Below are positions 13,754-32,001 of a DNA stretch of 64,000 nt, in pieces. Source of the stretch: Novosphingobium sp. ST904 (GTDB taxonomy: Bacteria; Pseudomonadota; Alphaproteobacteria; Sphingomonadales; Sphingomonadaceae); assembly GCF_001298105.1 (NCBI RefSeq), contig NZ_LGJH01000138.1:1-64000 (forward strand), given 5' to 3'. Made by a program: the position numbers and the translations under genes. The notes beneath the pieces were generated by a model, which was not told the DNA's origin, searched no databases, and saw only the letters and a program-made list of their open reading frames with translations. Numbering within the stretch: the stretch's first letter is position 1; the number at the start of each line of letters is the position of its first letter.

Positions 13754-14522
13754 ATGAAGAGCATGATTCCCCCCGGCAGACTGGCGAGTCTCCTCCTGCT
13801 TGCGCAAGCCGCGTTCCTTGCGGTGGATGGCCTGCCCGCCGCCGCGCAGTCACCCAGCTCGATCCTGATCTGGCCGGTCAACCCGGTCATAGAGGGGCAG
13901 GCCCGGGCCACCGCGCTCTGGCTCGAAAATCCGGGCAAGTCGCCGATTACGCTGCAGGTCCGCATCTATGCCTGGACGCAGCGCGAAAACCAGAACCTCT
14001 ATGCCGAGACGCGCGAGGTCATAGGCTCGCCGCCGATCGTGACCATCGAGCCGGGGGCCCGGCAACTGGTGCGGATCACGCGGCTTGTCGCCCCGCCGCC
14101 GTCGGGAGAGCAGCCCTATCGCATCATCGTCGATGAAGTCCCGGTGAAGGACGGCCCGGGCACCGCCGGCGCATCCGTGACCTTTCGCATGCGCTACTCG
14201 CTTCCGCTGTTTTCCGAGGCGAAGCAGGAAGGCGGCGCGGAAAGGCCGACGCGCCCGCAGCCGCCATCGCCTGGCGCACGGGCACGGACCGGGACGCCGT
14301 TTCCTTGAAATCCGCAACAGCGGCTCCGGCCATGCCAGGCTGAGCGACGTCGCCTTCACGGGCGGGCGGTCAGCGTCGGTGCTGGGTGAAGGCCTGTTCG
14401 GCTATGTCCTGCCCGGCGCGACGATGCGCTGGCCATTGCCATCAGGGGTGGACGGATCGGGCGATCTCGTTGCCGCCGTCAACGGACGGGCGCAGGCCCG
14501 TATCGAGCGGCTGCCGGAATGA
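13754..14522 (+). CDS. periplasmic pilus chaperone, PapD/FimC type (frameshifted)
   Basis: Chaperone that folds SCPU subunits by donating a beta strand and hands them to the usher. A signal peptide (to AAAQ) is followed by SSILIWPVNPVIEGQARATALWLENPG, PPIVTIEPGARQLVRITR and PYRIIVDEVP, the conserved strands of domain 1. The frame breaks near 14240 and again near 14295. Joining the three frames gives AIAWRTG, then GRRFLEIRNSGSGHARLSDV, the normal second domain, ending at 14522. Both breaks are likely to be sequence errors because the protein is otherwise complete (about 255 residues) and the usher gene starts 7 bases later. Confidence 0.8.
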
Positions 14523-14528
14523 CGGCGC

Positions 14529-16930
14529 ATGATCGCCGCCACCCATTCTCCGGCGCGCCTCCCGTGGCTGGCCGCGCTGGCGGCGGCTATCCTGCAAGCT
14601 GCGCCCGCGCAAGCCGCGGATGCGGCCGATGCCCGGTATGATGTCTTTACCGAGCTGCCGCCGCCGCCCCGGCACACCGACCCGGACGCCGAGCAGCAGC
14701 TCGAACTGGAACTCGTCGTCAATGGACTGGCGAGCGGCGTGATCGCCTCGGTGACCCGGCAGGGCGGACGGTTCCAGCTTCGCGCGCAGGATCTGCGGCA
14801 AGCGGGCCTGCTGCTGGACACGGCCGAGGACAGCCTGTTTATCGACAGTCTGGAAGGCGTGAGCGCCGATTACGACGCCCCGCGCCAGCAGTTGCACCTC
14901 ACCGTTTCCCCGGAACGCCTCCCCGCCCAGCATCTGGGCGGCAGCGCGGAGGCATTCGCCCCGGCGCAGCAGGATACCGGCGCACTGCTCAATTACGACC
15001 TCTATGTCAGCGGCGGCGAAAGGGCGGCGTTCCGGGCCTCGCTCTGGCACGAAGCCCGGCTGTTCGGCCCCTTCGGCCTGTTTTCCACCACCGGCGCGCT
15101 GCGCTCGAATGCAGGGCGGGCCTACGTCCGCTTCGATACGATCTGGCGCTGGTCGGACGAACGCAGCATGACGACCATGGAAGCCGGCGACATCATCACC
15201 CGGACCCTGCCCTGGGCGCCCGCGATCCGGCTGGGCGGCGCGCAGGTCTCGCGCGATTTCTCGGTGCGGCCGGATATCGTCACGTACCCGCTGCCCGAAT
15301 TTGCCGGGAGCGCGGCGCTGCCTTCCACGGTGGAACTGGTCGTCAACGGCCAGCGGATCGCGGGGAGCCAGGTTCGCCCCGGTCCTTTCGCGCTCGACAC
15401 GCTGCCGCCGATCAGCGGCTACGGCGAGGCCAATCTCATCGTTACCGACATGCATGGGCGCAGCGTGGCAACGGCGCTGCCGTTCTATGTCAGCAGCATC
15501 CTGCTGCGCCCCGGCCTTGCCGACTATTCCGTGGCGGCAGGGGCCTTTCGCCGCAACTACGGCACCGCGAACTTCGATTATGGCCGCTTGCCGCAAGCGC
15601 CTCCCTGCGCCGGGGGATGACCTCCGGCCTCACGCTTGAGGCACGCGCGGAAGCCACGGGAACGATGCGCCTGCTGGGGGCCGGCGCCGTTTTCCGGCTG
15701 GGCAATCTCGGCATCGTCAGCACCGCCTATGCCCGCAGCTTTCACAAGGGGCGCCAGGGCGGGCAACTGACTCTCGGCTACGAGTATCAGGCCAGGACCT
15801 TCTCCCTCGGCCTGCGCCACAGCCGACAGGACCGCCACTACGCCGATCTCGGAGTGCTGGACAGGAACGGCCGGCAGAACCGTCCGGAATGTCTTTCCGA
15901 ACCTCCTGCCGAAAGCTGCGCGGGCAACCGGGAGCGATCGACCGCCGCCACCGCCAGCATCGCCATCGGCAGCGCCAGCACCCTGGGCATCGGCTACTTC
16001 GACATCCGGCGATCCGGCACCGCCGATGCCCGGCTGGCGAACCTGAGCTGGGCGCTGCCGCTGGTGGGAGAAAGCCGGATCAATGCCTCGATCTCCCGCG
16101 ATTTCGCGGAACGCGGATGGTCGGGCGCGATTACGCTCACCATCCCGCTGGGTGGCGGCAACCTCGGCACCGGCGTCTCGCGGGACAATGCCGGGCGCAG
16201 CGGATTGCGGGCGGACTATTCGCGCGCCGTGCCGTCCGATGGCGGCCTGGGCTGGAGCGCCAGCGCCTTCAGCGAGGGCGGCGGAAGACCCTACCTCAGG
16301 GGCGACGTGCTCTGGCGGGCCCAGCCCGTCCAGCTTCGTGCGGGCGCCTATGGACGGGACGAGGTGACCGGATGGTTCGGCGCCAGCGGCTCGCTGGTCT
16401 TCATGGACGGCTCGCTCTTCGCGGCGAACCGGGTATCCGATGCCTTCGCGGTCGTCAGTACCGACGGCGAGGCGGGCATCCCGGTGCGCTACGAAAACCA
16501 GCTCATCGGCAGGACCGGTTCCGGCGGCAAGCTGCTGGTCCCCTCGGCCAGTGCCTATTACCCCGCGCATTACGACATCGACACCCTGTCGCTGTCGCCC
16601 AACGTGAAAGCCGATACCGTGAGCCGCCGCGTGGCCATCGCCGCCGGCAGCGGCCACGTCATCCGTTTTCCGATCGAGAGGGCGATCGCCGTCCGCGCGA
16701 CGATCGCGGACACGCGGGGCGAGCCGCTGCCCGCCGGAACCCCGATTACGGTCAACCGCAAGGACAGGGCCTATGTCGGCTGGGACGGAATGCTGTTCAT
16801 CGACGACGCCTCCCCCGAGACCGGCCTGGAAGCGATCCTGCCTGACGGCACACGCTGCCATGCGGCGTTTTCCGTGCCTGCGGAAGCTGAAGAGATCATC
16901 GATGCGGGAACGCTGACATGCCGTTCCTGA
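14529..16930 (+). CDS. outer-membrane usher, FimD/PapC type (frameshifted)
   Basis: Outer-membrane assembly platform for the SCPU pilus. It has a signal peptide ending APAQA, an N-terminal periplasmic domain (LELELVVNGLASGVIASV, RLPAQHLGG), the barrel start, a plug-like segment (GSAALPSTVELVVNGQRIAGSQVRPGPFALDTLP), and a C-terminal part with RVAIAAGSGHVIRFP and GTLTCRS. The frame shifts near 15595, where DYGRL should continue as ASASLRRGMTSGLTLEA. About 800 residues in total, normal for SCPU ushers. Its last 13 bases overlap the start of the next gene, showing tight operon structure. Confidence 0.87.
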
Positions 16931-17923
16931 AGCGCCTGCCTTGCGGCATCGCCGCCACGCTGGCCGCCTGGTCGATGATGCCGGGCACCGCCGGAGCTGC
17001 ACGCTTTCGGCAACGAGCACCAACCTCGGCAGCCTGAGTTCCTACACTGTCGCCAATACCGCGCAGGCGGGGAGCGGATCGGCCGGGCTGCAGTGCGACA
17101 TTCTCCTCGCGGCGCTGACCACGCATTATGTCGGCCTTCAGGTGGATGCCTCGACCTTCCGGCTCACCGGTCCGAGCGGACAGACCATCCCCTTCACCGC
17201 CGCGCTGAGCGCGAACGGAGCCGCCCTTGCTATCGGCAGCTTCCAGAACCTGTCCTCGCTCAGCATCGTCAGCCTTTTTGCGGGCACGAACAACTCCATC
17301 CCCCTCTATTTCCGCACGACCGCGACATCCGGCCTCCGGGCGGGACGCTACACCGGCTTCCTCGACTTGCGCTGGTTCTACTCGGTATGCTCGCTCGGGG
17401 CCGCCGTATGCCTCAGCTACTCGTCCAGTCCGGGCTTCGTCCGTCCGGGGCTTGGCGTCGCGCTCAACTGGGGAGCGGGCAGCACGGTTCGCGTCAACGT
17501 GGAACTCACCGTCCTGAACGATTGCATCATTACCGCTCCGGCCGCCAGCTTCGGCTCGGCGCCGCTGGTCGCAGCTTCAACCCCATCACCCGGACCATCC
17601 TGATCCGGTGCAGCGCGGGAGCGAGCTATACGGTGGGCCTCAACGACGGCAACAATGCCGACGGCACCGTCCGCCGGATGCGCAAGATCGACAATTCCAG
17701 CAACTACCTGCGCTACGAGATATACAAGTCGGCCTCCTCCACCGAGCGCTGGGGATCGGTGGACAGCGCCCGGCGCAGCAGTACCACTGCCGACACCAAC
17801 CAGGGCATATACGATTCCGTCACGACCCAGAGCTATACCTACAGGGCCGCAGTTCTGCCCGGCCAGATCACGCCTGCCGCCGGGGACTACAGCGACACGA
17901 TCCGCATAGATGTCGCCTTTTGA
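16918..17923 (+). CDS. SCPU domain protein, probable pilus tip subunit (frameshifted)
   Basis: Last structural gene of the pilus operon. It starts at an ATG inside the usher end (MPFLKRLPCGIAATLAAWSMMPGTAGA, a signal peptide). The frame shifts near 17005 and continues CTLSATSTNLGSLSSYTV, AGLQCDILLAALTT, ending VNVELTVLNDCIITAPAASFGSAP. It shifts again near 17570 to a typical SCPU domain (SFNPITRTILIRCSAGASYTVGLNDGNNADGTVRRM to GDYSDTIRIDVAF). Two domains, the N-terminal one divergent, suggest a tip adhesin, as in other SCPU loci; this is inferred. Length about 335 residues when joined. Confidence 0.75.
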
Positions 17924-18039
17924 ACGGGTTAGGCAGGGCGGGCAAATTCGGCAGGGCGAGCCGCGATTGCGACGAGGGCGGGAACCATCGCGCGCGCTCC
18001 GGCGCTGGTCCTGCGGGAAATCAGGCAAAGGGGACACGC

Positions 18040-18570
18040 ATGAGCGAACATGCGCGCGGCCACTTACCAGTCGCACCGGAAGAAGCGCAGCTCGACACGC
18101 TGGTGGGGCGAGTGGAAAATCTCATCGCGATGCTGGAAAACATCGCGATAGAGCAATGGCGTGCACGGCGCCAACTGCGGCATTCGTCGGAAACCGCCCT
18201 GCCGCCAGCCTCAACCCCGCCCCTTTCTCCGCCGGAAGAGGCCCGCGCCGCGCTTGCCCGGGACCGCATAAGGCAACGCCGCGCGCGCGAGAACTGCTTC
18301 GGCGCCGAATTCTTCTCGGACCCGTGCTGGGACATCATGCTGGATCTTTACGCCGCCCATTACGAAGGCGAACCGGTCTCGATCTCGAGCCTCTGCATCG
18401 CCGCATCGGCTCCTGCGACCACGGCCACGCGCTGGATCGACCGGATGACCGAAAAGGGCCTGCTCACGCGTTCGAAGGACCCGGCCGACGGGCGGCGAAT
18501 CTATATTCACCTCAGCAAGGATACCCGCCTCAAGCTCGATGCCTACTTCGAGGCACTCCAGCAGAATTGA
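18040..18570 (+). CDS. MarR-like winged-helix regulator
   Basis: 176 residues from the ATG at 18040, with AAGGGG upstream. The N-terminal part contains a predicted coiled segment (LDTLVGRVENLIAMLENIAIEQWRARRQ). The C-terminal half is a winged helix: CWDIMLDLYAAHYEGEPVSISSLCIAASAPATTATRWIDRMTEKGLLTRSKDPADGRRIYIHLS, with the MarR wing motif DGRR. Such sphingomonad regulators are often found alone; here it follows the pilus operon by 116 bases and could control it. No ligand-binding domain is evident. Confidence 0.75.
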   Translation: MSEHARGHLPVAPEEAQLDTLVGRVENLIAMLENIAIEQWRARRQLRHSSETALPPASTPPLSPPEEARAALARDRIRQRRARENCFGAEFFSDPCWDIMLDLYAAHYEGEPVSISSLCIAASAPATTATRWIDRMTEKGLLTRSKDPADGRRIYIHLSKDTRLKLDAYFEALQQN

Positions 18571-18609
18571 CGGGCATGGCCGCCTCCCCCCGCCCAACCT
18601 GATGCCGAC

Positions 18610-19092
18610 CTATCCCTTGCAGGCCGCCGCCATCGTGCGCAGTTCCGCCTCACTCAGGCCGCGGTCGCGCAGGGCGCAGGGCCTGCCCGTCTCGTCCGTC
18701 ATCACGGCATAGGGCAGCCCGGCCGCCCGCCCGGCGGAAGCGCGGCGCAGGAGTTCCCAACCCTCTCGCGGCGAGATCGCCAGTTTCTGGCGACCATCGA
18801 AGCGGCGCGTCATTTCCGTGCTGCCCGCGCCCTCGTCCAGCGCGACGATCAGCAGGCGCCGGGGGCGCGCCGCAGCCTCCAGCGCCTCAAACCGGGCAAG
18901 CTCGGCAAGGCAGGGGGCGCACCACGAAGCGACGAACATCAGCACGCTATCGCGAGGCGGTTCGCCCGGCGCCGCAACAAGCGAGGCGGCGGGTACCGAC
19001 CCTGCCGCAAGGGCGGGCGCGGACGCGCCTATAAGGGACAATACTGATGGAAATACGACAATTGATATCAATCGCTTAACTTGCGAAGCCAT
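18610..19092 (-). CDS. thioredoxin-like exported protein
   Basis: 160 residues starting MASQVKRLISIVVFPSVLSLIGASAPALAAG, a signal peptide. A thioredoxin active site WCAPC lies near residue 57 in VLMFVASWCAPCLAELARFE, as in TlpA/ResA-type periplasmic oxidoreductases. The C-terminal part keeps the cis-proline region (AAGLPYAVMTDETGRPCALRDRGLSEAEL). Probably reduces or transfers disulfides in the periplasm; the partner is unknown. It is divergent from the repeat protein at 19138 with only 45 bases between. Confidence 0.75.
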   Translation of the reverse strand: MASQVKRLISIVVFPSVLSLIGASAPALAAGSVPAASLVAAPGEPPRDSVLMFVASWCAPCLAELARFEALEAAARPRRLLIVALDEGAGSTEMTRRFDGRQKLAISPREGWELLRRASAGRAAGLPYAVMTDETGRPCALRDRGLSEAELRTMAAACKG

Positions 19093-19137
19093 ATTGGATA
19101 GCCCACTACGCACCTGAACACTTCTCCGAGGCTCCCT

Positions 19138-21106
19138 ATGTTCGGTATTATTGGCCAATCCCTGCTTTTGGCAACAGCGCAGGCCGCGGCTCCCGCCGCA
19201 GCGGCTCCCGCTTCGGCGCCCGCCACGCTCCAGCAGCAGTTCGATGCCGCCAGCGACGCGGCACAGGATGGCAAATGCAGCGACGCGATTACCGCATTCG
19301 AAGCGCTGGAACACAATCCCGCCGCCATGAAGTCCCCGGTCGTGCGCGGCGCGATCGGCGTGCGCAAGGGCAACTGCCTGGTGAAACTGCACCGGACCGA
19401 CGAGGGCGAAGCCGCGATCCGTTCGGGACTGCCGGCAATGGTCGCCGCAGGGGAAGTCTTTGTCGGCGATGTCGTGAACGCCCACATGGGGCTGGGCACC
19501 GCCGCCCGCGACCGGTTCGACTACGCCCGCGCGGGGGACGAATTCCGTCTGGCGCTGGCGGCGGGCGGGCCGCAGGGGCGCTTCAGGCCGTTGCTGGCGC
19601 TGTCGCAGGTTTCCATTTTCGATCCCGGCCCCGAACCGCTCGCCTATATCGACGAGGCGAGCCGGATCGCTGACGCAACGCCTTCGATCAGCAAGGATTT
19701 CCACGCGCAGCTGCTGACGCTCAAGGCCCGGATACTGCTCAATCGCGGGGAAAAGGCGGAAGGCTACGCCTTGCTCAAGGACGCGCTGAAGCTTCAGGGC
19801 GGGCTGTCGCTCAAGGTTTCGCTCAGCGATGTCGCCACCCGCTCAGACCTCGCGATCGCCGCCATGCTGCTGAACAAGCGGGACGATGCCCGGAACTATC
19901 TTGTCTATACCGGCGCCGGGCGCATGGATCAGGCGCCGTTCTCCCGTGCCGAGAACATGGATGTCCCCCTTTGCGGCTCCACCAGCGGCCTGACCCCGGC
20001 AGACTACGCCGTGGTCGAATTCAGCATCGCCGACGACGGTTCCGCCTTCGGGGTTCAGCCGATCTATTCCACCGGGGGCCGCGAAATTGCGCTGGCGTTC
20101 GCGCGTGCAGCGTCCCGCTGGTCCTGGGCCCCTGCCAAGGTGCAGGAAATCAAGCCGTTCCTGCGCTACGCCATGCGGGTCGAGATGCGCTGCACGGTCG
20201 CCGGAGCCCGCCCCCAGATCAACGAACCGCTGACCTCGCGCTTCATGCAGTGGGCTGCGCCGCTGCTGGCCGGCAGGACCCAGGGCGGAACCGACGGTGC
20301 GGTCGCCGCCCGGGCCAGCGCGCTGCTCGATCAGTCCCGCAAGGAAGGGACAGACCAGTTGACCGTCGCGCTGCTGGGCATGCTGGGCCTCAATCCGGTG
20401 ACGGACACGGCTTCGGCCAACACCTACCTGCAGGAAGGCCTCGGCCTTGCCCTCAGCCGGAACATGCCGGTGGAGACTTCGAACTGGCTGCGCTTCGCCA
20501 TCGCCGCGCAGCGCAATTCCGATAAACCGGCGGCTACGCGCGCCGCGCTAAGGGAACTGCTTCCGGTGGTGACGGCAACCGGCGATGCCCTGGCGATCGA
20601 CACCGTGCGGCTGCAGATCGCTTCGCCCGGCTACCGCCTGAGCGCCCCCGTGGACGCGCCCACCCTGCGCGAAGCGGTGATCGCCGATCCCGCCCTGCCT
20701 CGCGACCATCCGCTCAAGATCAACGCGCTCCTGCAAAGCGCATCATGGGCCGCGCAGAACAGGGACTTCTCGCAGGCCCAGCAGATCTTCCAGCAGACCG
20801 GCCTCAGCACCGAGCAATGCGCCTTCATCGGCGCGCGCCCGCCATTCGCAGGACCGGCGTAAGCTCCACCGACTATCCGATGGAAGCCGCGCGCATGGGC
20901 TTCGAAGGCTGGACCCGCGTGGAGTTCGATGTCGATTCCGCCGGTCGCACCCGCCAGCAGCGGGCGCTGATCTCCTACCCTCCGTTCGTCTTTTCCGATG
21001 CGGCATCGGCCATGGCCAAGGACTTCGTCTACGAAAGCAGCTACCGCCCCGGCGGCGACACGGCCTGCGCGGGCGCGCGCAGAACATCGCCTTCCGGATG
21101 AACTAG
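19138..21106 (+). CDS. repeat protein with TonB-like C-terminal domain (frameshifted)
   Basis: Large exported protein of about 650 residues. A hydrophobic N-terminus (GIIGQSLLLATAQAAAPAAAA) is followed by helical repeat-like sequence suggestive of tetratricopeptide repeats (QQQFDAASDAAQDGKCSDAITAFEAL, FDYARAGDEFRLALAAGG). A first TonB-C-like stretch lies in the middle (DYAVVEFSIADDGSAFGVQPIYSTGG, ALAFARAASRWSWAPA), then more helices. The frame shifts near 20860. Joining gives a second TonB-C-like domain (GFEGWTRVEFDVDSAGRTRQQRALISYPP, FVYESSYRP). A last shift near 21075 gives QNIAFRMN at the end. Role unknown; such domains resemble the TonB C-terminus but lack a proline-rich linker here. Confidence 0.65.
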
Positions 21107-21117
21107 GCGTCGCGGAT

Positions 21118-22101
21118 TCAAGCGTCTTCCAGAATCGAGCGGAAGAGCCCGGGATCGACGTTAGAGCCGGACATGACGATGACCGTGGCTCCCGGCGCGG
21201 GCGGCGCGCGGCCTGAAAGGGCCGCCGCCAGTGCCACGGCGCCGCCCGGTTCGACGACGAGCTTCGTCTTCTCGAACGCGAAGCGCATCGCCTCGCGCAC
21301 TTCCCCGTCGCTCACCGCAAGGCCGCCGGAAAGCAGCGCGCGGTTGATCGGGAAGGTCAATTCGCCCGGGCTCGGCGCCAGCAATGCATCGCAGATCGAG
21401 CGCGCGCCCGAAGGAACGGATTCGCGGTGGCCACTGGCCAGCGATCGGGCCGTATCATCGAACGCCTCGGGCTCCACGCTGTAGATTTCGACCTGCGGAG
21501 CCGAGGCCTTGATTGCCGTGGCGATCCCGGCGACCAGCCCGCCCCCGCCGCAGCAGACGAGCACCCGGCCGATCTCGGCCCTCGCTTCCCCGGCCTGTTC
21601 AAGGATCTCCAGCCCGGCGGTTCCCTGCCCGGCGATCACGAAGGGATCGTCGAACGACGGCACGAGAACCGCGCCCCGCGCGTTCGCCAGAGCCGTGGCG
21701 ATCTCTTCCCGCGACTGGGTGTAGCGGTCGTAGGGAACGATCTGCGCGCCCAGCGCCCGCGTGTTGGCGACCTTGATGGCCGGGGCATCGGCGGGCATGA
21801 CGATCGTTGCCGGGATGCCAAGCAGGCGCGCCGCCGCCGCTACGCCCTGGGCATGGTTGCCGGAAGACCACGCGACGACCCCTGCGGCCCTGCGCTCGGC
21901 AGCGATACGGGACAGCCGGTTGTAGGCTCCGCGAAACTTGAAGGAACCGGTGTGCTGCGCACCTTCGAACTTCACCAGCGCGCGGTGGCCGAGGCGTTCG
22001 TTCAGCGGCGCGAATTCCAGCAGCGGCGTGCGCACCGCCGCGCCGCGAATGCGGTCTGCCGCGTCGATGACGTCTGCGATGGAGATGGCGCGTTCAGGCA
22101 T
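21118..22101 (-). CDS. bhcB: PLP-dependent beta-hydroxyaspartate dehydratase-like (BhcB / threonine dehydratase family)
   Basis: 327-residue fold-type II PLP enzyme. The PLP lysine lies in GSFKFRGAYNRL, the substrate loop in SSGNHAQGVAAAARLLG, and the phosphate-binding glycine loop in CCGGGGLVAGIA. The short length, without a regulatory ACT domain, matches catabolic serine/threonine or hydroxyaspartate dehydratases. In the beta-hydroxyaspartate cycle BhcB converts erythro-beta-hydroxyaspartate to iminosuccinate. The assignment rests on the two neighbours, which are homologues of BhcC and BhcD. The ATG at 22101 overlaps the end of the BhcD-like gene by 8 bases. Alternatives are a threonine/serine dehydratase or EutB of ectoine catabolism; the aldolase neighbour argues against the latter. 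Confidence 0.72.
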   Translation of the reverse strand: MPERAISIADVIDAADRIRGAAVRTPLLEFAPLNERLGHRALVKFEGAQHTGSFKFRGAYNRLSRIAAERRAAGVVAWSSGNHAQGVAAAARLLGIPATIVMPADAPAIKVANTRALGAQIVPYDRYTQSREEIATALANARGAVLVPSFDDPFVIAGQGTAGLEILEQAGEARAEIGRVLVCCGGGGLVAGIATAIKASAPQVEIYSVEPEAFDDTARSLASGHRESVPSGARSICDALLAPSPGELTFPINRALLSGGLAVSDGEVREAMRFAFEKTKLVVEPGGAVALAAALSGRAPPAPGATVIVMSGSNVDPGLFRSILEDA

Positions 22102-23038
22102 GGTGGCTCCCCGGATTCCGGTTTTCGAAAGCAGCCACGAGGTGCCGCGCGATGACAAGGTCCTGCAGCGAGATGCCGGAACTGTCGAAGACGGTTATCT
22201 CTTCCGCCGACCGGCGCCCCGGAGCGCGGCCCGAAAGGACATCGCCGATCGCCGCGATGCGCGCCCGGTCGCCGCGGTAATGCTGGAACTCGCCGATGGT
22301 CACGGCTTGCGCGGGCAGGTCGCAGAACAGGCGCGCCCGCGCGAACAGGGACGGCGGCAGTTCCTGCTTGCCCGCCGCATCGGACCCCATGCTGACGACA
22401 TGGGTGCCCGGCCCGATCCATTCGGCATCGAACAGCGGCGCACGCGCCGGCGTGGCAGTGACCACGATATCGGCCGCTTCGCAGGCCTCGCGCGCGCCGG
22501 AAAGCTCGGCCCGAAGCCCGTGTTCGCCAAGCCGGGCGGCAAATGCGGCCCCCTTGGCATCGTCGCGCGCGACCACGAGGATCTTGCGGATCGGCCGCAC
22601 GCCCGCAAGCGCAAGGCATTCATGCAGTGCCTGATGCCCGGCCCCGAACAGGGCGAGCACCCCGGCATCCTCTCGTGCCAGCGCTTCGGCGGCAACGGCG
22701 TTCACGGCGGCGGTCCGCCAGGCATTGACCTGCCCCGCCTCGATCACCCATTCGACACGGCCAAGGCTCTGGTCGATCAGCAGGATCGTCGAATTATGGC
22801 GCGGCAGCCCGCGCGCGGCGTTGCCCGGCCAGAACGAACCGACCTTGAGCCCCGCCAGATCGCCCGCAACCCCCGCCTTTATCGAAAACCTGTCGGCAGG
22901 CACGGTGCCATGCGCCAGCACGGCGGGGAAAACGATGCCTTGCGGGCTCGCCGCAAGGACCAGAGCCTCCCGCGCCGCCGCCCGCGCCATTTCGGGCGTG
23001 ACCAGCGCGGCGGATTGTTCTTCGGAGATGAACTTCAT
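22094..23038 (-). CDS. bhcD: iminosuccinate reductase-like (BhcD / ornithine cyclodeaminase family)
   Basis: 314-residue member of the ornithine cyclodeaminase/mu-crystallin family. Visible features are FSIKAGVAG, the dinucleotide-binding stretch LALFGAGHQALHECLAL, ADIVVTATPARAPLFDAEWI and HVVSMGSDAAGKQELP. Family members reduce imines with NAD(P)H or cyclise ornithine. In the beta-hydroxyaspartate cycle BhcD reduces iminosuccinate to aspartate. The gene sits between the aldolase-like (10 bases upstream) and dehydratase-like (8-base overlap) genes, so the order here is C-D-B. The start at 23038 (MKFISEEQ) fits the family; longer upstream starts would run into the neighbouring gene. Confidence 0.72.
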   Translation of the reverse strand: MKFISEEQSAALVTPEMARAAAREALVLAASPQGIVFPAVLAHGTVPADRFSIKAGVAGDLAGLKVGSFWPGNAARGLPRHNSTILLIDQSLGRVEWVIEAGQVNAWRTAAVNAVAAEALAREDAGVLALFGAGHQALHECLALAGVRPIRKILVVARDDAKGAAFAARLGEHGLRAELSGAREACEAADIVVTATPARAPLFDAEWIGPGTHVVSMGSDAAGKQELPPSLFARARLFCDLPAQAVTIGEFQHYRGDRARIAAIGDVLSGRAPGRRSAEEITVFDSSGISLQDLVIARHLVAAFENRNPGSHHA

Positions 23039-23048
23039 GCAGACCTCG

Positions 23049-24212
23049 TTACCAGCCGCGAAAACGCGGCCAGGTCCGAAGACCGGCAGCGCCGCGCGGG
23101 ATGACGGTATAGGCGTCGAACTGGGCCGCCGTGGAGCAGGCGTGATTGGGCAATATGCGCAGCCGCGTGCCCACGGGACATTCCGGCAGGACACCGCCGC
23201 TGCCCGGCCTCGGGGCGATGATCCCGTGTTCCTGGTTGGCCTGAATGACGATCAGGTCCGCCAGCGGCGTGCCTTCGGCATCGCAGACCAACCCGTAGCC
23301 CTGATCCACGGCCTGCCCCTGCGTGCCGCGATCGCGTGACAGCGCCATCCATCCGGCGTCCACGATGATCCAGCCCTTGTCCCGCTGATGTCCGATTACG
23401 GTGGTGAGCACCGAAAGCGCGATGTCCTGCACCGAGCAGACGCCGATCCCTGCCATCACCAGATCGAAGAAGACATAGACCCCGGCCCGTACTTCGGTAA
23501 CGCCAGCAAGGTCGCGCGCGAAATGTGCCGTCGGTGTCGAGCCGACGCTGACCACGGGACACGGCAGGCCTGCATGCCTGAGGTTCTCCGCCGCTTCGAC
23601 CGCGGCGGCACGTTCCCGTTCCGCGAAAGCCTCCAGCGCCGGTCCGCCGCTGGCACCGTAGCTTTCGCCTGCATGGGTCATCACGCCGCGCAGCACCGCG
23701 CCCCCGTCCACCAGGATGCGCCCGATCGCCGGGATGCGTTCGTCATCCGGGACCAGGCCGGAGCGGTGCCCGTCGCAGTCGATCTCGAGCAGGACGGGGA
23801 TCGGCGCGTCGGCGCCAGCGGCGACCACTGCGCGCGCCTGCTCCACGGAATCGAGGACCACCGTCAGGTCGCAGCCCGCCGCGCGCAGGGCCTGCACCCT
23901 CTCCAGCCGCTGCGGCGCGATCCCCACCGCGTAGAGGATATCGCCAACCCCCGCCGCGAACAGTTCCGACGCTTCCTTCAGGGTGGAAACGGTGGCCGGA
24001 CCGCAGCCACCGTCAAGCTGGCGCCGGGCAACGTCGATGGACTTGGCGGTCTTCATGTGCGGACGCAGCGTCACGCCAAGCGGAGCCAGATGGCGCCGAA
24101 GGCGGTCGATGTTCTGCTGCATCCTCGTTTCGTCGAGGATCAGGCAAGGCGTCTCGCAATCGGCGAGAATATCGCGGGATCGAAGGGTGTCGGCAGGCAT
24201 CAGCATCTCCAT
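23049..24212 (-). CDS. bhcC: beta-hydroxyaspartate aldolase-like (BhcC / D-threonine aldolase family)
   Basis: 387-residue fold-type III PLP enzyme (alanine-racemase-like N-terminal domain). The PLP lysine is in LRPHMKTAKS, and the metal-binding His and Cys are probably those of LPNHACSTA near the C-terminus, as in D-threonine aldolases. Other family segments are ETPCLILDETRMQQNIDRL, HAGESYG and SVGSTPTA. In the beta-hydroxyaspartate cycle BhcC joins glycine and glyoxylate to form erythro-beta-hydroxyaspartate. First gene of a three-gene operon divergent from a GntR regulator. The ATG at 24212 is used, but the in-frame ATG at 24200 has GGAG at better spacing. A D-threonine or D-3-hydroxyaspartate aldolase remains possible. 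Confidence 0.75.
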   Translation of the reverse strand: MEMLMPADTLRSRDILADCETPCLILDETRMQQNIDRLRRHLAPLGVTLRPHMKTAKSIDVARRQLDGGCGPATVSTLKEASELFAAGVGDILYAVGIAPQRLERVQALRAAGCDLTVVLDSVEQARAVVAAGADAPIPVLLEIDCDGHRSGLVPDDERIPAIGRILVDGGAVLRGVMTHAGESYGASGGPALEAFAERERAAAVEAAENLRHAGLPCPVVSVGSTPTAHFARDLAGVTEVRAGVYVFFDLVMAGIGVCSVQDIALSVLTTVIGHQRDKGWIIVDAGWMALSRDRGTQGQAVDQGYGLVCDAEGTPLADLIVIQANQEHGIIAPRPGSGGVLPECPVGTRLRILPNHACSTAAQFDAYTVIPRGAAGLRTWPRFRGW

Positions 24213-24220
24213 GGCCCAAC

Positions 24221-24232
24221 CTGTATATACAG
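24221..24232. promoter_or_regulatory. HutC/GntR-type operator
   Basis: Perfect 12-bp palindrome CTGTATATACAG, the classical form of sites bound by HutC-subfamily GntR regulators. It lies 9 bases upstream of the aldolase start and 48 bases upstream of the GntR gene, overlapping a GATAAT that could be the -10 box of the regulator gene. It probably lets the regulator repress both directions. Confidence 0.75.
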
Positions 24233-24280
24233 ATAATGACCTGCTGTCTAGGCAGCCGCGCCTGTGCTAAGGCGCGGGGC

Positions 24281-25007
24281 ATGACGACCAGACCCGCCGC
24301 CCCCGGCCTGCGCGAGAGCATCGACCGCCACATCATCGCCCGCATCACTTCGGGCGAATGGAGCGCCGGGGATCGCATCCCTTCGGAAAGCGGGTTCATG
24401 GAAATGTTCGGCGCAGCCGGATGACCGTGCATCACGCCCTGCGCGATCTCACCGCGCGCGGCTTTCTCGTGCGGCACGCGGGCTCCGGCACTTTCGTTGC
24501 CCCGCCGCGACCCTATGTCGCGGAGTACGCCCATCTCGACATCATCGAGGAAATCGCGGCGCGCGGCGCCCGTCACCGCGCGCAAGTGCTGAAGCGGGAG
24601 CTTGCGCCGGCCGGCACCGAGCAGGCCCGCGCGTTCGAACGCGGCGAGGGGGACATGCTGTTCCACGCCGTGATCCTGCATTTCGAGGATGACGTCCCGC
24701 TGGAACTGGAAGATCGCCTGATCGCCCCCGAAGCCCTGCCGGACTGCATGGCCGTGGACCTGGGAAGCCAGACGCTGTTCTCGCGCCTGATGCTGATGCG
24801 CCCTTACCGCGAAGGCAGCGAGGAAGTCCGCGCGGTGCTGCCACGCCCGGGGAACAGCGGCTGATGGCGATCGCGCCGCATGTCCCCTGCCTTGAGATCA
24901 CCCGGCGCACATGGTCGGCCGAAGGCGTGGTGACGGCGGCGAGAATGCTGCGCGGGGGCGACCGGGGCACCATGCACGGCCGCATCCGGTCGATGCCCGC
25001 CGCCTGA
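24281..25007 (+). CDS. GntR-family regulator, HutC subfamily (frameshifted)
   Basis: Repressor-type regulator of about 240 residues when joined. The N-terminal winged helix reads LRESIDRHIIARITSGEWSAGDRIPSES. The frame breaks near 24417 and resumes MTVHHALRDLTARGFLVRHAGSGTFVA. A UTRA effector domain follows (HLDIIEEIAARGARHRAQVLKRE, LFHAVILHFEDDVPLELEDR). A second break near 24850 leads to QRLMAIAPHVPCLEITRRTWSAEGVVTAARMLRGGDR at the C-terminus. Divergent from the Bhc-like operon, with its palindromic site between, so it probably senses an intermediate such as a hydroxyaspartate or glyoxylate-derived compound (inference). The known Paracoccus cluster uses an IclR-type BhcR instead. Confidence 0.8.
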
Positions 25008-25022
25008 CCCCGGCGCCGATCT

Positions 25023-27548
<2,526 letters not shown>

Positions 27549-27588
27549 ATCAGCCCCCGAAGTCAGAAACACGAGAGCTTCGTGCCAT

Positions 27589-27609
27589 CTCAACTAAATT
27601 AGTTGAAAT
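27589..27609. promoter_or_regulatory. sulfur-regulon palindrome, copy B
   Basis: Begins CTCAACTAAATTAGTTG. The inner CAACTAAATTAGTTG is a 15-bp palindrome around one central base. It lies about 41 bases upstream of the receptor start at 27548 and just downstream of the sulfonate-binding-protein gene end. Confidence 0.6.
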
Positions 27610-27644
27610 TGAATTGCCTTATCTGAACCCAAGTTTTTCTTGAT

Positions 27645-28583
27645 TCAGGCATTCAACAGGAATGCGCCGCCGAGCGGACGCGACGACCGTACTTCGCCAA
27701 ACCTGCGAAACGTATCGAGGACGACCTGCTGATCGGATATGACCTTATTATCAATCGGCACCCGCAGGCGGATATTCTTCTCTGCCGTGGCGCGGGCAAT
27801 TTCGGGCGGCAGTCCGGTTTCCTTTGCCAGCACGGCGCCATAGTCGTCGACATGGCCCCTGGCCCACTCGAGCGCCTTGGCCTCGCGCCGGAGGAAATCG
27901 GACAATTGTTCGCGCTTTGCGGCGATGGCGCTTTCCGGCGCCACTTCGAAGCCATAGCCCTGCACGAAATCCCGGCCATCCACGACGATCCTGTCCCCCT
28001 CGGCCTGCGCCGCGGCGATATAGGGCATCCAGGTGGACCAGGCGTCCACCGCGCCGCTCTGCAGCGCCGCGCGGGAATCGCTGGGCGAAAGGAACACGAT
28101 CTTCACGTCCTCGGGCCGGAGCCCGGAAGCGATCATCGAACGGAGCACGAGATAGTGGCCCACGCTGCCGCGCGTCGTGGCAATACGCTTGCCCTGCAGG
28201 CCCTTGCCGTCGCGCACCGGCGATCCCGCGGGCACGAGGATGGAAAGCGCGCCGTCCAGCCGGGCCTGCGTGCGCTGGGCGCCCACGGCCTTGATCGGGC
28301 TGCCAGCCTGATAGGCGAACTGGAACGGCGCATCGCCCACCAGCCCGAGATCGACGGCGCTGCTGCCCAGCGCTTCGAGCAGGTTCTGCGCCGCCGGAAA
28401 TTCCGACCACTCGACCTTGTAGGACGCGCCGTCGAGCGCGCCGGAAGCCAGCATCAGCGACTTGGTGCCGCCCTTCTGGCTACCGACGCGCAGCACCCCG
28501 GCATTTGCGCCCGCGCCCCGGCCGCAAGCGGCCAGGGCGAAGGTCGTGGCAAGTCCTGCAAGCAGGTTGCGTCTGTCCAGCAT
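27645..28583 (-). CDS. ssuA: sulfonate ABC transporter periplasmic binding protein
   Basis: 312-residue binding protein of the SsuA/TauA/NrtA class. The signal (NLLAGLATTFALAACG) contains a lipobox, so it may be a lipoprotein. Mature motifs include LRVGSQKGGTKSLMLASGALDG, NLLEALGSSAVDLGLVGDAPFQFAYQAGSPIKAVGA and LQGKRIATTRGSVGHYLVLRSM. It captures aliphatic sulfonates for the SsuBC transporter. Unusually it is the last gene of its operon, 2 bases after the tauD-like gene, far from ssuB and ssuC. Confidence 0.87.
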   Translation of the reverse strand: MLDRRNLLAGLATTFALAACGRGAGANAGVLRVGSQKGGTKSLMLASGALDGASYKVEWSEFPAAQNLLEALGSSAVDLGLVGDAPFQFAYQAGSPIKAVGAQRTQARLDGALSILVPAGSPVRDGKGLQGKRIATTRGSVGHYLVLRSMIASGLRPEDVKIVFLSPSDSRAALQSGAVDAWSTWMPYIAAAQAEGDRIVVDGRDFVQGYGFEVAPESAIAAKREQLSDFLRREAKALEWARGHVDDYGAVLAKETGLPPEIARATAEKNIRLRVPIDNKVISDQQVVLDTFRRFGEVRSSRPLGGAFLLNA

Positions 28584-28585
28584 CG

Positions 28586-29446
28586 ATCAGAGGTCCGTCC
28601 AGAGCGGTTCGTCGGCGATGAGGATGCGGTGCAGTTCGCGTGGGAAATCGCCGTAGTTGCGCACCGCGAAGTGTACGTTGCGCGGTTGTCCCAGAACGCC
28701 ACCGTCCCCGGCCGCCACGAGAAACGCGCCTGGAGGTCGGGCCGCTTGTACTGGAGCAGCACCTCGTCCAGCAGTTCGCGGCTTTCGGACAGTTCCAGCC
28801 CGAGGATCTGCGGCTGCTGCGAGAAGTTGACCCAGAGGATCTTCTGCCCGGTCTCGCGGTGGGTCCGCACGATCCTGTGCGCAACGATGGGGTAGTCATG
28901 CCCCGAAAGCTCCAGCGCGGGCACGAAGTTGTGCGTGACATGCCTGCCTTCGAGGCGCGCCTTGATCTCCGCCGGCAGCGTTTCATAGGCGAGATGGGCA
29001 TCGACCCAGATCGTGTCCCCGCCCACTTCGGGCAGGTTCACATCGCGCAGCACCGCACCCCAGGTGGGAACGAGCCGCCAGCTCGTGTCGGTGTGATAGG
29101 CCTCGCCCGGACGCAGCTTGTAGCCGAGCTTCCTTTCATATTCCCGGTCCTCCCGCGCGGCGATGGCGTGGACTTCCTTGTTGGCCGCATCGTGGCGCGT
29201 GGTGGGATGGGTATAGAGCGGCCCGAAGTTCGCGGCAAAGGCCGCCTGCTGGGCGTCGTCGATCGACTGGTCGCGAAAGAACAGCACCTTCCACTTGAGC
29301 AGCGCGGCGCGGATCGCGCCGCGCTGCTCGTTGGGGAGGGGCTTCGAAAGGTCCACGCCCTCGACTTCGGCGCCGATGGTCGGCTGGACCGGGCGGATCA
29401 CGAGGCCGGCGTTCGAAACGTCGAAAGTGGAAGCGGTACTGGCCAT
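28586..29446 (-). CDS. tauD: taurine dioxygenase-like Fe(II)/2-oxoglutarate oxygenase (frameshifted)
   Basis: TauD/TfdA family enzyme that uses iron, oxygen and 2-oxoglutarate to release sulfite from taurine or related sulfonates. The first two iron ligands are in EAYHTDTSWRLVP (HxD), and VGGDTIWVDAHLAYETLP is a typical segment. The frame shifts near 28683, after GTVAFWDNR. The continuation NVHFAVRNYGDFPRELHRILIADEPLW contains the expected third iron ligand (His) and 2-oxoglutarate-binding Arg. Joined length about 286 residues, normal. Cytoplasmic. The break is probably a base error. Confidence 0.85.
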
Positions 29447-29472
29447 GGGTTTTCTCCTTTCCGTGCTGTCTG

Positions 29473-30806
29473 TCAGGCCGCCGTACGGCGCAGCCGCGCG
29501 GTGGTGTTGCGATTGACGGGAACGTCCAGCCCCAGCGTTTCGCGAAGGGTGTTGCCGGGGTAGTCCTGCTTGTAGATCCCGCGCGCCTGAAGGATCGGCA
29601 CGACATGGTCGACAAAGACCTCAAGCTGCCCGGGCAGGGATTCGAACAGGTTGAAACCATCCGATCCGCGCTGCTCGAGCCAGAGCTGGAAGCGGTCGGC
29701 GACCTGTTCGGGCGTACCGGTGAAGTGGCTGCGCGGCGTGGCCACGCGCAGGGCGATCTCGCCAAGGGTCAACCCGCGCTCTGCCTCTTTCAGTACCTTC
29801 TCGGACGCGCTCTGGTTGCTGCGGCGCCCCTCTTCGGCGACGTGCTGCGGGAACGGGCCATCGGGATCGTAGAGGCTGAAATTGTGATCGTTGAACGAAC
29901 GGCCAAGCGCCCGCAATGCGTTCTCCAGACTGACGAGACCGGCCAGTTCGCGGTGAAGACGCTCGGCTTCCTCCTCGGTCGAACCCACGATCGGGCGCCC
30001 GCCGGGAAGCACCAGAAGCTGGTCGGGATCGCGCCCGAAACCGCGCGCACGCGCCTTGACGTCGGCATAGAAGGCCTGCCCTCGGCAAGGTCTTCCTGAT
30101 GGGTGAAGATTGCCTCGGCATGGCGCGCGGCGAAGTTGCGGCCGTCTTCAGAGGACCCCGCCTGGAAGATCACCGGCTGCCCCTGCGGCGAGCGCGAGAT
30201 GTTGAGCGGGCCCTTTACCGACAGGAATTCACCCTTGTGGCCCAGTTCATGCAGCTTGCCGGGATCGAGGAACTGCCCGCTGGCCTTGTCGCGGACAAGG
30301 GCGCCGTCCTCCCAGCTATCCCAGAGCCCCTTCACGACATCGAGGTATTCCTCGGCCAGCCGGTAGCGCACGTCATGGTCGAGGTGCTTGTCCCGGCCGA
30401 AGTTGGCCGCGCTGCCTTCCAGCCACGAGGTAACGACGTTCCACCCGGCCCGGCCGCCGCTGATGTGATCGAGCGAGGCGAACTGGCGGGCAAGGTTGTA
30501 GGCTTCGGTATAGCTGACCGTCGCCGTGCCGACGAGGCCGATATGCTCGGTCACGGCGGCTACGGCAGAGAGGATCGTCAGCGGCTCGAAGCGGTTGAGA
30601 TAGTGCGGCGATGAGCGCGCATTGATCGAAACGCTGTCGGCCACGAACAGGTAATCGAACTTGCCGCGCTCGGCGACCTGCGCCTGCCGGGTGTAGAACG
30701 AAAGGCTGGTGCTGGCATCGACCTGGGCGTCCGGGTGGCGCCAGTCGTCCCAGCCGGGGCCGACGCCGTGCAGGATGAAACCGAGTTTTAGTTGGCGTTT
30801 GCTCAT
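29473..30806 (-). CDS. FMN-dependent monooxygenase, NtaA/SnaA/DszA family (frameshifted)
   Basis: Third member of this family in the window, about 444 residues. A strong AGGAGG precedes the ATG at 30806. Segments: [80 protein letters not shown]. The frame breaks near 30080 (after HQEDLAEG) and resumes by 30012 as [25 protein letters not shown], ending [19 protein letters not shown]. It lies between the SsuD and TauD genes. It probably desulfurises an organosulfur compound with FMNH2 supplied from elsewhere, since no reductase is in the operon. Confidence 0.83.
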
Positions 30807-30911
30807 GTCATTCCTCCTTCTGCGTGGGTTCAGGCTATGGGGTGCGGGGGCTGTGAACCAACGCGGATGGCTGATAGGAACGTGAGTTTTTCCAATGCGC
30901 GGGCCGCCGCT

Positions 30912-32001
30912 TCAGCTTGCCAGCGCCACTTTGTCCGTGCCTTCGCGGGCGGCGACTTTGGCGCGGACCAGCGGGATCAGGTCGCGGCCATAATCGATGG
31001 CGTCGGCCAGCGGTTCGAATCCCCGGATCAGGAAGTGATCGATGCCGATGTCGTAATATTCGAGCAGCGCATCGGCGACCTGTTCGGGCGTGCCGACAAG
31101 ACCGGTGCTGTTGCCCGCTGCCCCGGTAAGCGCGCCACGCCCGTCCACAGGCGGGTATCGCGGCGCTGGGTCTGCGCGGTTTCCAGCAGGCGCAGCGATC
31201 CGGCATTGGGCGGACGATGGCCGCTGGTGGGAAGACCTGCCGCCTCGCGGTTGGCGCGGACCTTCTCGGTGATCTCGTCGGCCTTCTTCCACGCCGCTTC
31301 CTCGGTATCGGCAATTACCGGCCGCAGCGAGAGCGAGAATCCGGGATTGCGGCCATGCCGGGCGGCCGCGTGGCGCACGGTGCGAACGGCCTCGCCCACT
31401 TGCTCCAGCGTCTCGCCCCAGAGCGCGTAGACATCGGCATGGCGGCCCGCCACCTCGATCGCCTCGGGCGAGGAGCCGCCGAAGAACACCGGCAGGTTGT
31501 CCGGCTTCACGGCGCTGAAGCCGCCGCGCACTTCGTAGAAACGGCCGGAATGATCGAAGGGCGCGGTTTCCGCCCATTCGAGCTTGAGCACGCCGAGATA
31601 CTCGTCGCTGCGCAAGTAGCGTTCGGCCTTGAGGGTGTGAACGTCACCGTCGCGCGCCATCTCGTCATCGGCGCACCGGTGATGATGTGCACGGCGACGC
31701 GGCCGCCCGAAAGCTGGTCCAGCGTCGCAAGCTGGCGCGCCGCCAGCGTCGGCTGCGTGAAACCGGGGCGGTGCGCGACGAGGAAACCGAGGCGCGTGGT
31801 GATCGCGGCGGCATGGGCGGCAACGATCTGGCTTTCCGGCGAACTGGAGCCGAACGGGATCAGCACCCGGTCGAACCCGCCCGCTTCCTGCGCGCGGGCA
31901 GCGGCATCCACATAGTCGCGGTCAAGCACGCGAGAACGCGATCCGGCGTGGATTTCGGAGGTGTCGTTGAAGCCGATATAGCCGATGAACTTTACGGTCA
32001 T
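30912..32001 (-). CDS. ssuD: alkanesulfonate monooxygenase (frameshifted)
   Basis: Luciferase-like monooxygenase of the SsuD type, about 363 residues when joined, which cleaves alkanesulfonates to aldehyde and sulfite with FMNH2. N-terminus MTVKFIGYIGFND with AGGGAGAA upstream, then FDRVLIPFGSSSPESQIVAAH, ATLDQLSGGRVAVHIITGA. The frame breaks near 31665, resuming MARDGDVHTLKAERYLRSDEYLGVLKLEW and NLPVFFGGSSPEAIEVAGRHADVYALWGE. It breaks again near 31135 to [33 protein letters not shown]. All three parts belong to the same family in the right order, so indel error is likely. The enzyme is cytoplasmic. Confidence 0.83.

Follow-up and report, generated by a model that had tools for sequence, protein, structure and literature searches.

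A set of three adjacent genes on a 64,000-nucleotide stretch of DNA from Novosphingobium sp. ST904 (NCBI RefSeq assembly GCF_001298105.1, contig NZ_LGJH01000138.1, positions 1 to 64,000 of the forward strand; this whole stretch is called the window in the following) forms, on balance probably, a compact hydroxyaspartate dehydroxylation operon, whose substrate, product, stereochemistry and regulation we infer from sequence comparisons. The trio consists of three complete open reading frames (ORFs) on the minus strand, which are packed as one operon behind a divergent HutC-like GntR regulatory gene (Table 1). The fold-type III enzyme encoded by gene 1 and the fold-type II enzyme of the PALP family encoded by gene 3 would be stereochemically complementary dehydratases of 3-hydroxyaspartate isomers. 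Elimination catalyzed by pyridoxal 5'-phosphate (PLP) enzymes from hydroxyaspartate isomers would give one achiral enamine/imine. Each of the two dehydratases would remove water by alpha,beta-elimination and yield this same intermediate, aminofumarate or aminomaleate in equilibrium with iminosuccinate. The gene 2 product, which belongs to the ornithine cyclodeaminase (OCD) family, would then reduce the imine with NAD(P)H to aspartate, whereby the amino group is saved, and imine that escapes the reductase would hydrolyse to oxaloacetate and ammonia.

Table 1. Features of the trio locus, with positions in the window
Feature	Position	Strand	Length	Remarks
Gene 1, D-threo-3-hydroxyaspartate dehydratase-like PLP/metal enzyme (fold type III)	23049..24212	-	387 aa	Ala_racemase_N + D-ser_dehydrat; metal pair His357/Cys359
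Gene 2, predicted imine reductase, OCD/mu-crystallin family	22094..23038	-	314 aa from ATG	subfamily near but outside BhcD
Gene 3, putative PALP (fold type II) beta-hydroxy-amino-acid dehydratase	21118..22101	-	327 aa from ATG	start overlaps gene 2
GntR/HutC-like regulator, divergent	24281..25007	+		Pfam UTRA; NCBIfam HutC below cut-off; RL4 comparison
Palindrome GTATATAC	24223..24230			candidate operator of the GntR regulator, in the divergent intergenic stretch

A preliminary description, made from the sequence alone, had assigned the three genes to the families of BhcC, BhcD and BhcB of the beta-hydroxyaspartate cycle (BHAC), which is right at the level of Pfam, and had correctly given their order as C-D-B. 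It had also called them adjacent and overlapping. Adjacent they are, but the overlap exists for genes 2 and 3 only (8 bp), whereas genes 1 and 2 are separated by 10 bp. Novosphingobium sp. RL4 keeps the trio intact with 98-99% protein identity, within an alignment that spans 16.9 kb at 98.5% DNA identity and lies on a 1.82-Mb plasmid record on the RL4 side. Judged from its retention in RL4 and from the adjacency of gene 1 and gene 2 homologues in many distant genomes, the trio is probably held together by more than chance.

Gene 1 and the beta-hydroxyaspartate cycle

Among solved structures, the best match of the gene 1 product is the D-threo-3-hydroxyaspartate dehydratase (D-THA-DH) of Delftia (PDB 3wqc), with 428.6 bits over residues 12-387 of 387. 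Besides variants of the Delftia enzyme, further matches are 3llx (353 bits), chicken D-serine dehydratase (190 bits) and BhcC (6qkb, 83.6 bits), and the NCBIfam BhcC model is matched with 113 bits at a cut-off of 690. The metal pair of gene 1 is of the dehydratase type. It reads His and Cys in 51 of 51 alignment rows of gene 1's kind, the window included, and His and Asp in all 39 rows that match BhcC best, some of which are more distant aldolase-like proteins. This agrees with a structural study, which gives His and Asp as the metal ligands in D-threonine aldolase and His and Cys in serine dehydratase and 3LLX (PMC4401734). According to the alignments, the deposited Delftia variants 3wqg and 4pb3 depart from 3wqc at these two positions. 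The pair thus offers a simple sequence test by which dehydratases can be parted from BhcC and D-threonine aldolases.

In the tree of this family (59 rows), gene 1 falls into a set of nine OCD-linked enzymes with a support of 99 in the Shimodaira-Hasegawa-like approximate likelihood ratio test (SH-aLRT), away from BhcC, and the Delftia enzyme lies in the same larger clade; this tree calls for caution in that long branches come together at its outgroup. All three trees of this study are quick trees with SH-aLRT support only and no bootstrap, and eight matches were left out for short cover or an inner stop. Across 31 rows of the clade, 50 polar or aromatic positions are fixed to at least 95%, and at 48 of them gene 1 has the same residue as the Delftia D-THA-DH. 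Lys54, which we take to be the PLP lysine, is fixed in the family alignment, and together with the His and Cys pair it places gene 1 in the DSD1 family of D-threo-3-hydroxyaspartate and D-serine dehydratases. Judged by these comparisons, the gene 1 product is a relative of D-THA-DH and not the aldolase BhcC. Since its metal site and its clade are those of dehydratases, the trio is left without an enzyme for C-C bond formation.

This bears directly on the first of two options in the preliminary description, a shortened BHAC that makes aspartate from glycine and glyoxylate. We consider this route most improbable. The three Pfam families speak for it, as does a clade-mate of the gene 2 reductase in Methylobacterium sp. 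J-077, which is encoded close to a BhcC-type gene (see below). Against it stand, besides gene 1, the scores of all three proteins far under the Bhc cut-offs (113/690, 221/500 and 216/550 bits) and the trees, in which none of the three groups with its Bhc counterpart. BhcA had been reported missing from the window, and this absence extends to the whole assembled genome, where the best match to its model (NF045640) has 140 bits at a cut-off of 650; none of the 41 genomes and none of the 14 control genomes exceeded that cut-off, so that the search is without a positive control. The genome encodes only one PF14031 protein, which is gene 1 itself, and no BhcC. It also encodes a malate synthase G (1025 bits, cut-off 989), and glyoxylate therefore has an ordinary outlet. 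Thus, BhcA and BhcC are lacking, genes 3 and 2 are by model and clade not BhcB and BhcD, no IclR-type BhcR is adjacent, and the genome as sequenced does not supply the parts for a BHAC; the assembly is 96% complete and in 165 contigs, so a gap is possible. Profiles and trees, together with the metal site and the gene content of the genome, led us to reject the BHAC reading. The second option, a catabolic pathway for hydroxyaspartate or hydroxy-amino acids, is the best supported of the readings.

The imine reductase and its neighbours in other genomes

Gene 2 has BhcD as its best NCBIfam model (221 bits, cut-off 500), and its best structural match is the iminosuccinate reductase 6rqa (160 bits), followed by alanine dehydrogenase (133 bits). 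Of 99 rows, the OCD tree retained 79, and thinning removed two of the three BhcD rows that are linked to BhcC. In it, gene 2 belongs to a 35-row set (support 100) within a 39-row set (98); the 13 BhcD rows (99) form a set outside these, and EutC is distant. A scan of 34 clade members gave a match to the BhcD model at E <= 1e-40 for every one of them, the best E value of 1.5e-88 being the lowest for any of the models listed, and by implication no scanned member reaches the 500-bit cut-off. Gene 2 is therefore placed, as far as models and tree can tell, in a separate imine-reductase subfamily, whose nearest characterised relative is BhcD.

In respect of the substrate, the residue comparison points both ways as to whether gene 2 would reduce iminosuccinate to aspartate. 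Lys54, Lys65, His81, Ser83, Arg108, Gln252 and His253 are common to gene 2 and BhcD. His81 and Ser83 occur together in 36/36 clade rows, 31/31 BhcD rows and 14/14 further superfamily rows (81/81 in total), and are found in none of nine EutC rows nor in the alanine dehydrogenase row. Arg62 of BhcD, on the other hand, is Arg in 31/31 BhcD rows and 14/14 further rows and in 0/36 clade rows, where Leu (15) and Ile (9) occur; so the imine of this clade may not be iminosuccinate, and the missing Arg62 is the main doubt about this substrate. The clade moreover has fixed residues of its own, namely Asn105, Glu140, Ser286 and Ser287 (36/36 rows). Both features would suit a general module for the dehydration of beta-hydroxy-amino acids (such as D-serine, D-threonine, 3-substituted D-serines or a hydroxylated residue of a peptide), in which the reductase would convert a 2-imino acid other than iminosuccinate to the matching amino acid. 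We regard such a module as somewhat unlikely, given the agreement of gene 1 with the Delftia D-THA-DH at nearly all of its conserved polar and aromatic positions; further points on both sides come from gene neighbourhoods and from gene 3.

In order to describe these neighbourhoods, we used a scan of genome contigs with the OCD alignment and considered the best 80 of 555 related loci. Among these, the 39-row reductase clade is represented by 38 loci from three phyla (L034-L070, L094). A gene 1 homologue lies in the fetched stretch at 32 of them, at 25 of the 38 within 150 bp and on the same strand. The remaining six comprise L040, with a BhcC-type gene 138 bp away, L043, where a hydroxyaspartate ammonia-lyase (470 bits, above the cut-off of 452) is encoded at a distance of 2.4 kb, and four loci without any of these. 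Trios that include a PALP gene were found in Pectobacterium (two), Samsonia, Serratia and Streptomyces sp. BK340. Half of the ten PALP proteins scored exceed the ammonia-lyase cut-off of 452, namely the three tested from these trios (L038, 595; L056, 538; L060, 467), the one from the trio in Streptomyces sp. NBC_01240 (L193, 456) and L192 (578); the other five stay below it (L095, 357; L127, 353; L128, 327; L135, 333; L197, 296). The presence of curated hydroxyaspartate ammonia-lyases in other trios argues against the more general module.

Two arrangements with aldolase-like genes were also observed. In Methylobacterium sp. J-077 (L040, 5467-8930), 138 bp separate the gene for a reductase of the window's clade from that for a BhcC-type aldolase (620 bits, cut-off 690), and a PALP gene resembling threonine synthase lies nearby; this is possibly an alternative BHAC-like set. 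In Ramlibacter and Polaromonas (L071, L073) a BhcC-like gene (44-47% identity) and a dehydratase-reductase pair occur within about 5 kb.

Plasmids were sampled by opening 15 of 44 records, which gave 14 regions besides RL4 (L188-L201), the reductases of L196 and L197 being the most distant. Nine of the 14 regions contain a gene 1 homologue and three (L188, L190, L193) a RidA gene together with a dicarboxylate symporter gene. On the conjugative Escherichia coli IncN plasmid pN3 (L188, 2904-7077) the order is symporter (short, beside IS26)-RidA-OCD-LysR-DSD1, which is a case of the module travelling on mobile DNA. Streptomyces sp. NBC_01240 has symporter-PAS-RidA-OCD-DSD1-hydroxyaspartate ammonia-lyase, and Erwinia pyri symporter-RidA-OCD. 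A dicarboxylate carrier and an enamine/imine deaminase in such sister clusters, where RidA would hydrolyse the imine, would fit hydroxyaspartate-type substrates, and the three plasmid clusters with both genes count against other imino acids.

Several observations on gene neighbourhoods weigh against the hydroxyaspartate operon. The linkage is one-sided because the loci were fetched by the reductase. Looking from gene 1, no reductase was found within 1.5 kb of five homologues with 60-63% identity in genus relatives (L003-L007), and among six plasmid regions with gene 1 (L202-L207) a reductase fragment is present in one, while two contain RidA in place of a reductase. Gene 1 is thus often without gene 2 nearby and therefore also works without it in many genomes, which is expected if the imine can simply hydrolyse. 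Neither a transporter nor RidA is present in the window operon, and the symporter and RidA of Erwinia, used as queries, matched together at one (L066) of 50 genome loci searched. A dicarboxylate symporter with RidA as a general rule was accordingly dropped (1/50 genome loci, 3/14 plasmid regions). Finally, the gene 1-gene 2 pair of Novosphingobium sp. ES2-1 and Bosea sp. F3-2 is accompanied by genes for a GNAT protein, a flavin adenine dinucleotide (FAD) oxidoreductase, an aldehyde dehydrogenase and an ATP-binding cassette (ABC) transporter, and parts of this cluster also occur in Aminobacter and Mesorhizobium. This larger alphaproteobacterial cluster (L198-L201; also L036, L046, L049-L051 and L054) combines the pair with GNAT and/or aldehyde dehydrogenase genes, in several cases with FAD oxidoreductase and ABC transporter genes. 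It points to another or bigger substrate, as the more general module would have it.

Gene 3 and the stereochemical scope of the route

Gene 3 matches the threo-3-hydroxy-L-aspartate ammonia-lyase model NF005454 best among NCBIfam models (330 bits), without reaching its cut-off of 452. The scores are lower for BhcB (216 bits, cut-off 550) and for the EutB models TIGR02991 (214 bits) and NF005680 (229 bits), both with a cut-off of 413. In the PALP tree (46 rows, for which one in three BhcB rows, seven rows of EutB and 13 of the 29 homologues that stand alone were kept), gene 3 belongs to a 15-row clade (support 99) with 13 stand-alone-type homologues and the Exilibacterium protein of L095. This clade, a common alphaproteobacterial one that is threonine/serine dehydratase-like, is separate from BhcB, from EutB and from the ammonia-lyases found in the other trios. 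In a sample of 398 genomes of the phylum, 98, among them the window's own, encode homologues at E <= 1e-75. At the 29 sampled loci of the best homologues, neither a gene 1 nor a gene 2 homologue was found within the 1.5-kb flanks (29/29), and two of them have a BhcC/aldolase-like neighbour. Because of this common stand-alone clade and the missed ammonia-lyase cut-off, gene 3 may be an ordinary threonine/serine dehydratase, which is a further point against a dedicated hydroxyaspartate operon and one that suits the more general module. The preliminary description had named a grouping with ectoine EutB/EutC or with threonine catabolism as contrary to its proposal; the former did not occur, the latter is possible for gene 3.

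It might also be that the three genes serve separate catabolic pathways, or that a working pair of genes 1 and 2 stands beside an unrelated third gene. In favour of this, gene 3 is in a clade other than the PALP proteins of the other trios and so was recruited separately. We consider such a chance association unlikely in view of the 8-bp overlap and the 10-bp gap, of the adjacency of genes 1 and 2 in many distant lineages, and of Exilibacterium L095, in which a PALP gene of the gene 3 clade adjoins a related reductase gene.

For the hydroxyaspartate dehydroxylation operon, a broader scope can tentatively be proposed. Dehydratases of unrelated folds (types III and II) might take all four stereoisomers of 3-hydroxyaspartate to one achiral imine and, through the new OCD subfamily, to aspartate. 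Such a route would be widespread and partly plasmid-borne, and the BHAC would be the branch of it that gained the aldolase. In one article, the Delftia D-THA-DH is described to degrade D-threo- and L-erythro-hydroxyaspartate, and a PALP-type dehydratase of Pseudomonas sp. N99, which is 35% identical to mouse serine racemase, to act on the D-erythro isomer (PMC8071972). The L-threo isomer as a PALP substrate is taken from the name of NF005454. If true, this would be a nitrogen-saving salvage route for hydroxyaspartate that reaches from alphaproteobacteria to Streptomyces. Hydroxyaspartate is a constituent of siderophores and peptides and is also present in free pools. Open-access literature searches yielded no dedicated bacterial route of this nitrogen-saving kind. 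Those on the BHAC, hydroxyaspartate enzymes, OCD, serine racemase, ectoine, iminosuccinate and siderophore catabolism yielded no pair of a D-THA dehydratase and an OCD protein. All parts come from known families; neither their assembly nor a fold-III dehydratase standing in for BhcB turned up in these searches. Through the pairing of genes 1 and 2, a large group of proteins that are labelled only "DSD1 family", "alanine racemase" or "ornithine cyclodeaminase family" acquires a testable role, and the pairing may show the origin of the lower half of the BHAC. It also calls for caution, in that Pfam families alone are insufficient to call such trios BHAC.

Regulation, surroundings and known systems

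The regulator next to the trio is a GntR/UTRA protein, as the preliminary description had recognised, and not an IclR-type BhcR (for BhcR as IclR-type, see PMC11323563). Its best NCBIfam match is HutC with 124 bits at a cut-off of 220, obtained with the longest open piece only, since the frame is broken twice in this assembly, near 24413 and 24840. The RL4 counterpart is a single open frame of 242 codons. The alignment of the window (14095-31034) with RL4 contains 11 internal gaps of a single base, every one of them in the window sequence, and one gap of 9 bases in that of RL4. The single-base gaps disrupt several genes of the window, including the regulator and the TauD- and luciferase-like genes. 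They point to systematic base-loss errors in the assembly, and the breaks in the regulator are most likely such errors. A pseudogene was considered and set aside, as one-sided single-base gaps suit assembly errors better than decay.

The starts of the regulator and of gene 1 are separated by a 68-bp intergenic stretch, and the HutC-like GntR repressor probably controls the trio. The palindrome GTATATAC in this stretch is a weak candidate for its operator. It fits a HutC-type consensus, which was tested post hoc. The pattern GTMTAKAC has two matches in the 64 kb, one of which is GTATATAC; shuffled sequences have 0.41 on average, and 5 of 100 shuffles reach two. Beyond the regulator, the minus strand (25023-30806) encodes a TonB receptor, an NMT1-type binding protein, a TauD dioxygenase and a luciferase-like monooxygenase. 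This is a probable organosulfur-use operon, beside the trio yet separate from it.

Among known systems, hydroxyectoine EutB/EutC shares with the trio the adjoining of a PALP dehydratase and an OCD-family reductase, but the PALP and OCD proteins of the window both fall into separate clades. The ectoine reading was discarded on these clades and on the weaker profile scores (162 bits for gene 2 on the EutC model, cut-off 472); no EutC match at E <= 1e-60 was found in the window's genome. The beta-hydroxyaspartate cycle (bhcABCD) of Paracoccus denitrificans has the same three Pfam families and likely the same chemistry from hydroxyaspartate through an imine to aspartate, BhcD being nearest to gene 2 among characterised enzymes. 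The window trio differs in that it lacks BhcA, the aldolase and the IclR-type regulator, in that gene 1 is dehydratase-like, and in that all three proteins lie outside the Bhc clades. The threo-3-hydroxy-L-aspartate ammonia-lyase (NF005454) is the best curated match of gene 3, and its members adjoin homologues of genes 1 and 2 in the Pectobacterium, Serratia and Streptomyces trios, whereas gene 3 of the window is below 452 bits and in another clade. The D-THA-DH of Delftia sp. HT23 matches gene 1 with 429 bits and has the His and Cys pair and the larger clade in common with it; gene 1 of the window stands coupled to an imine-reductase gene.

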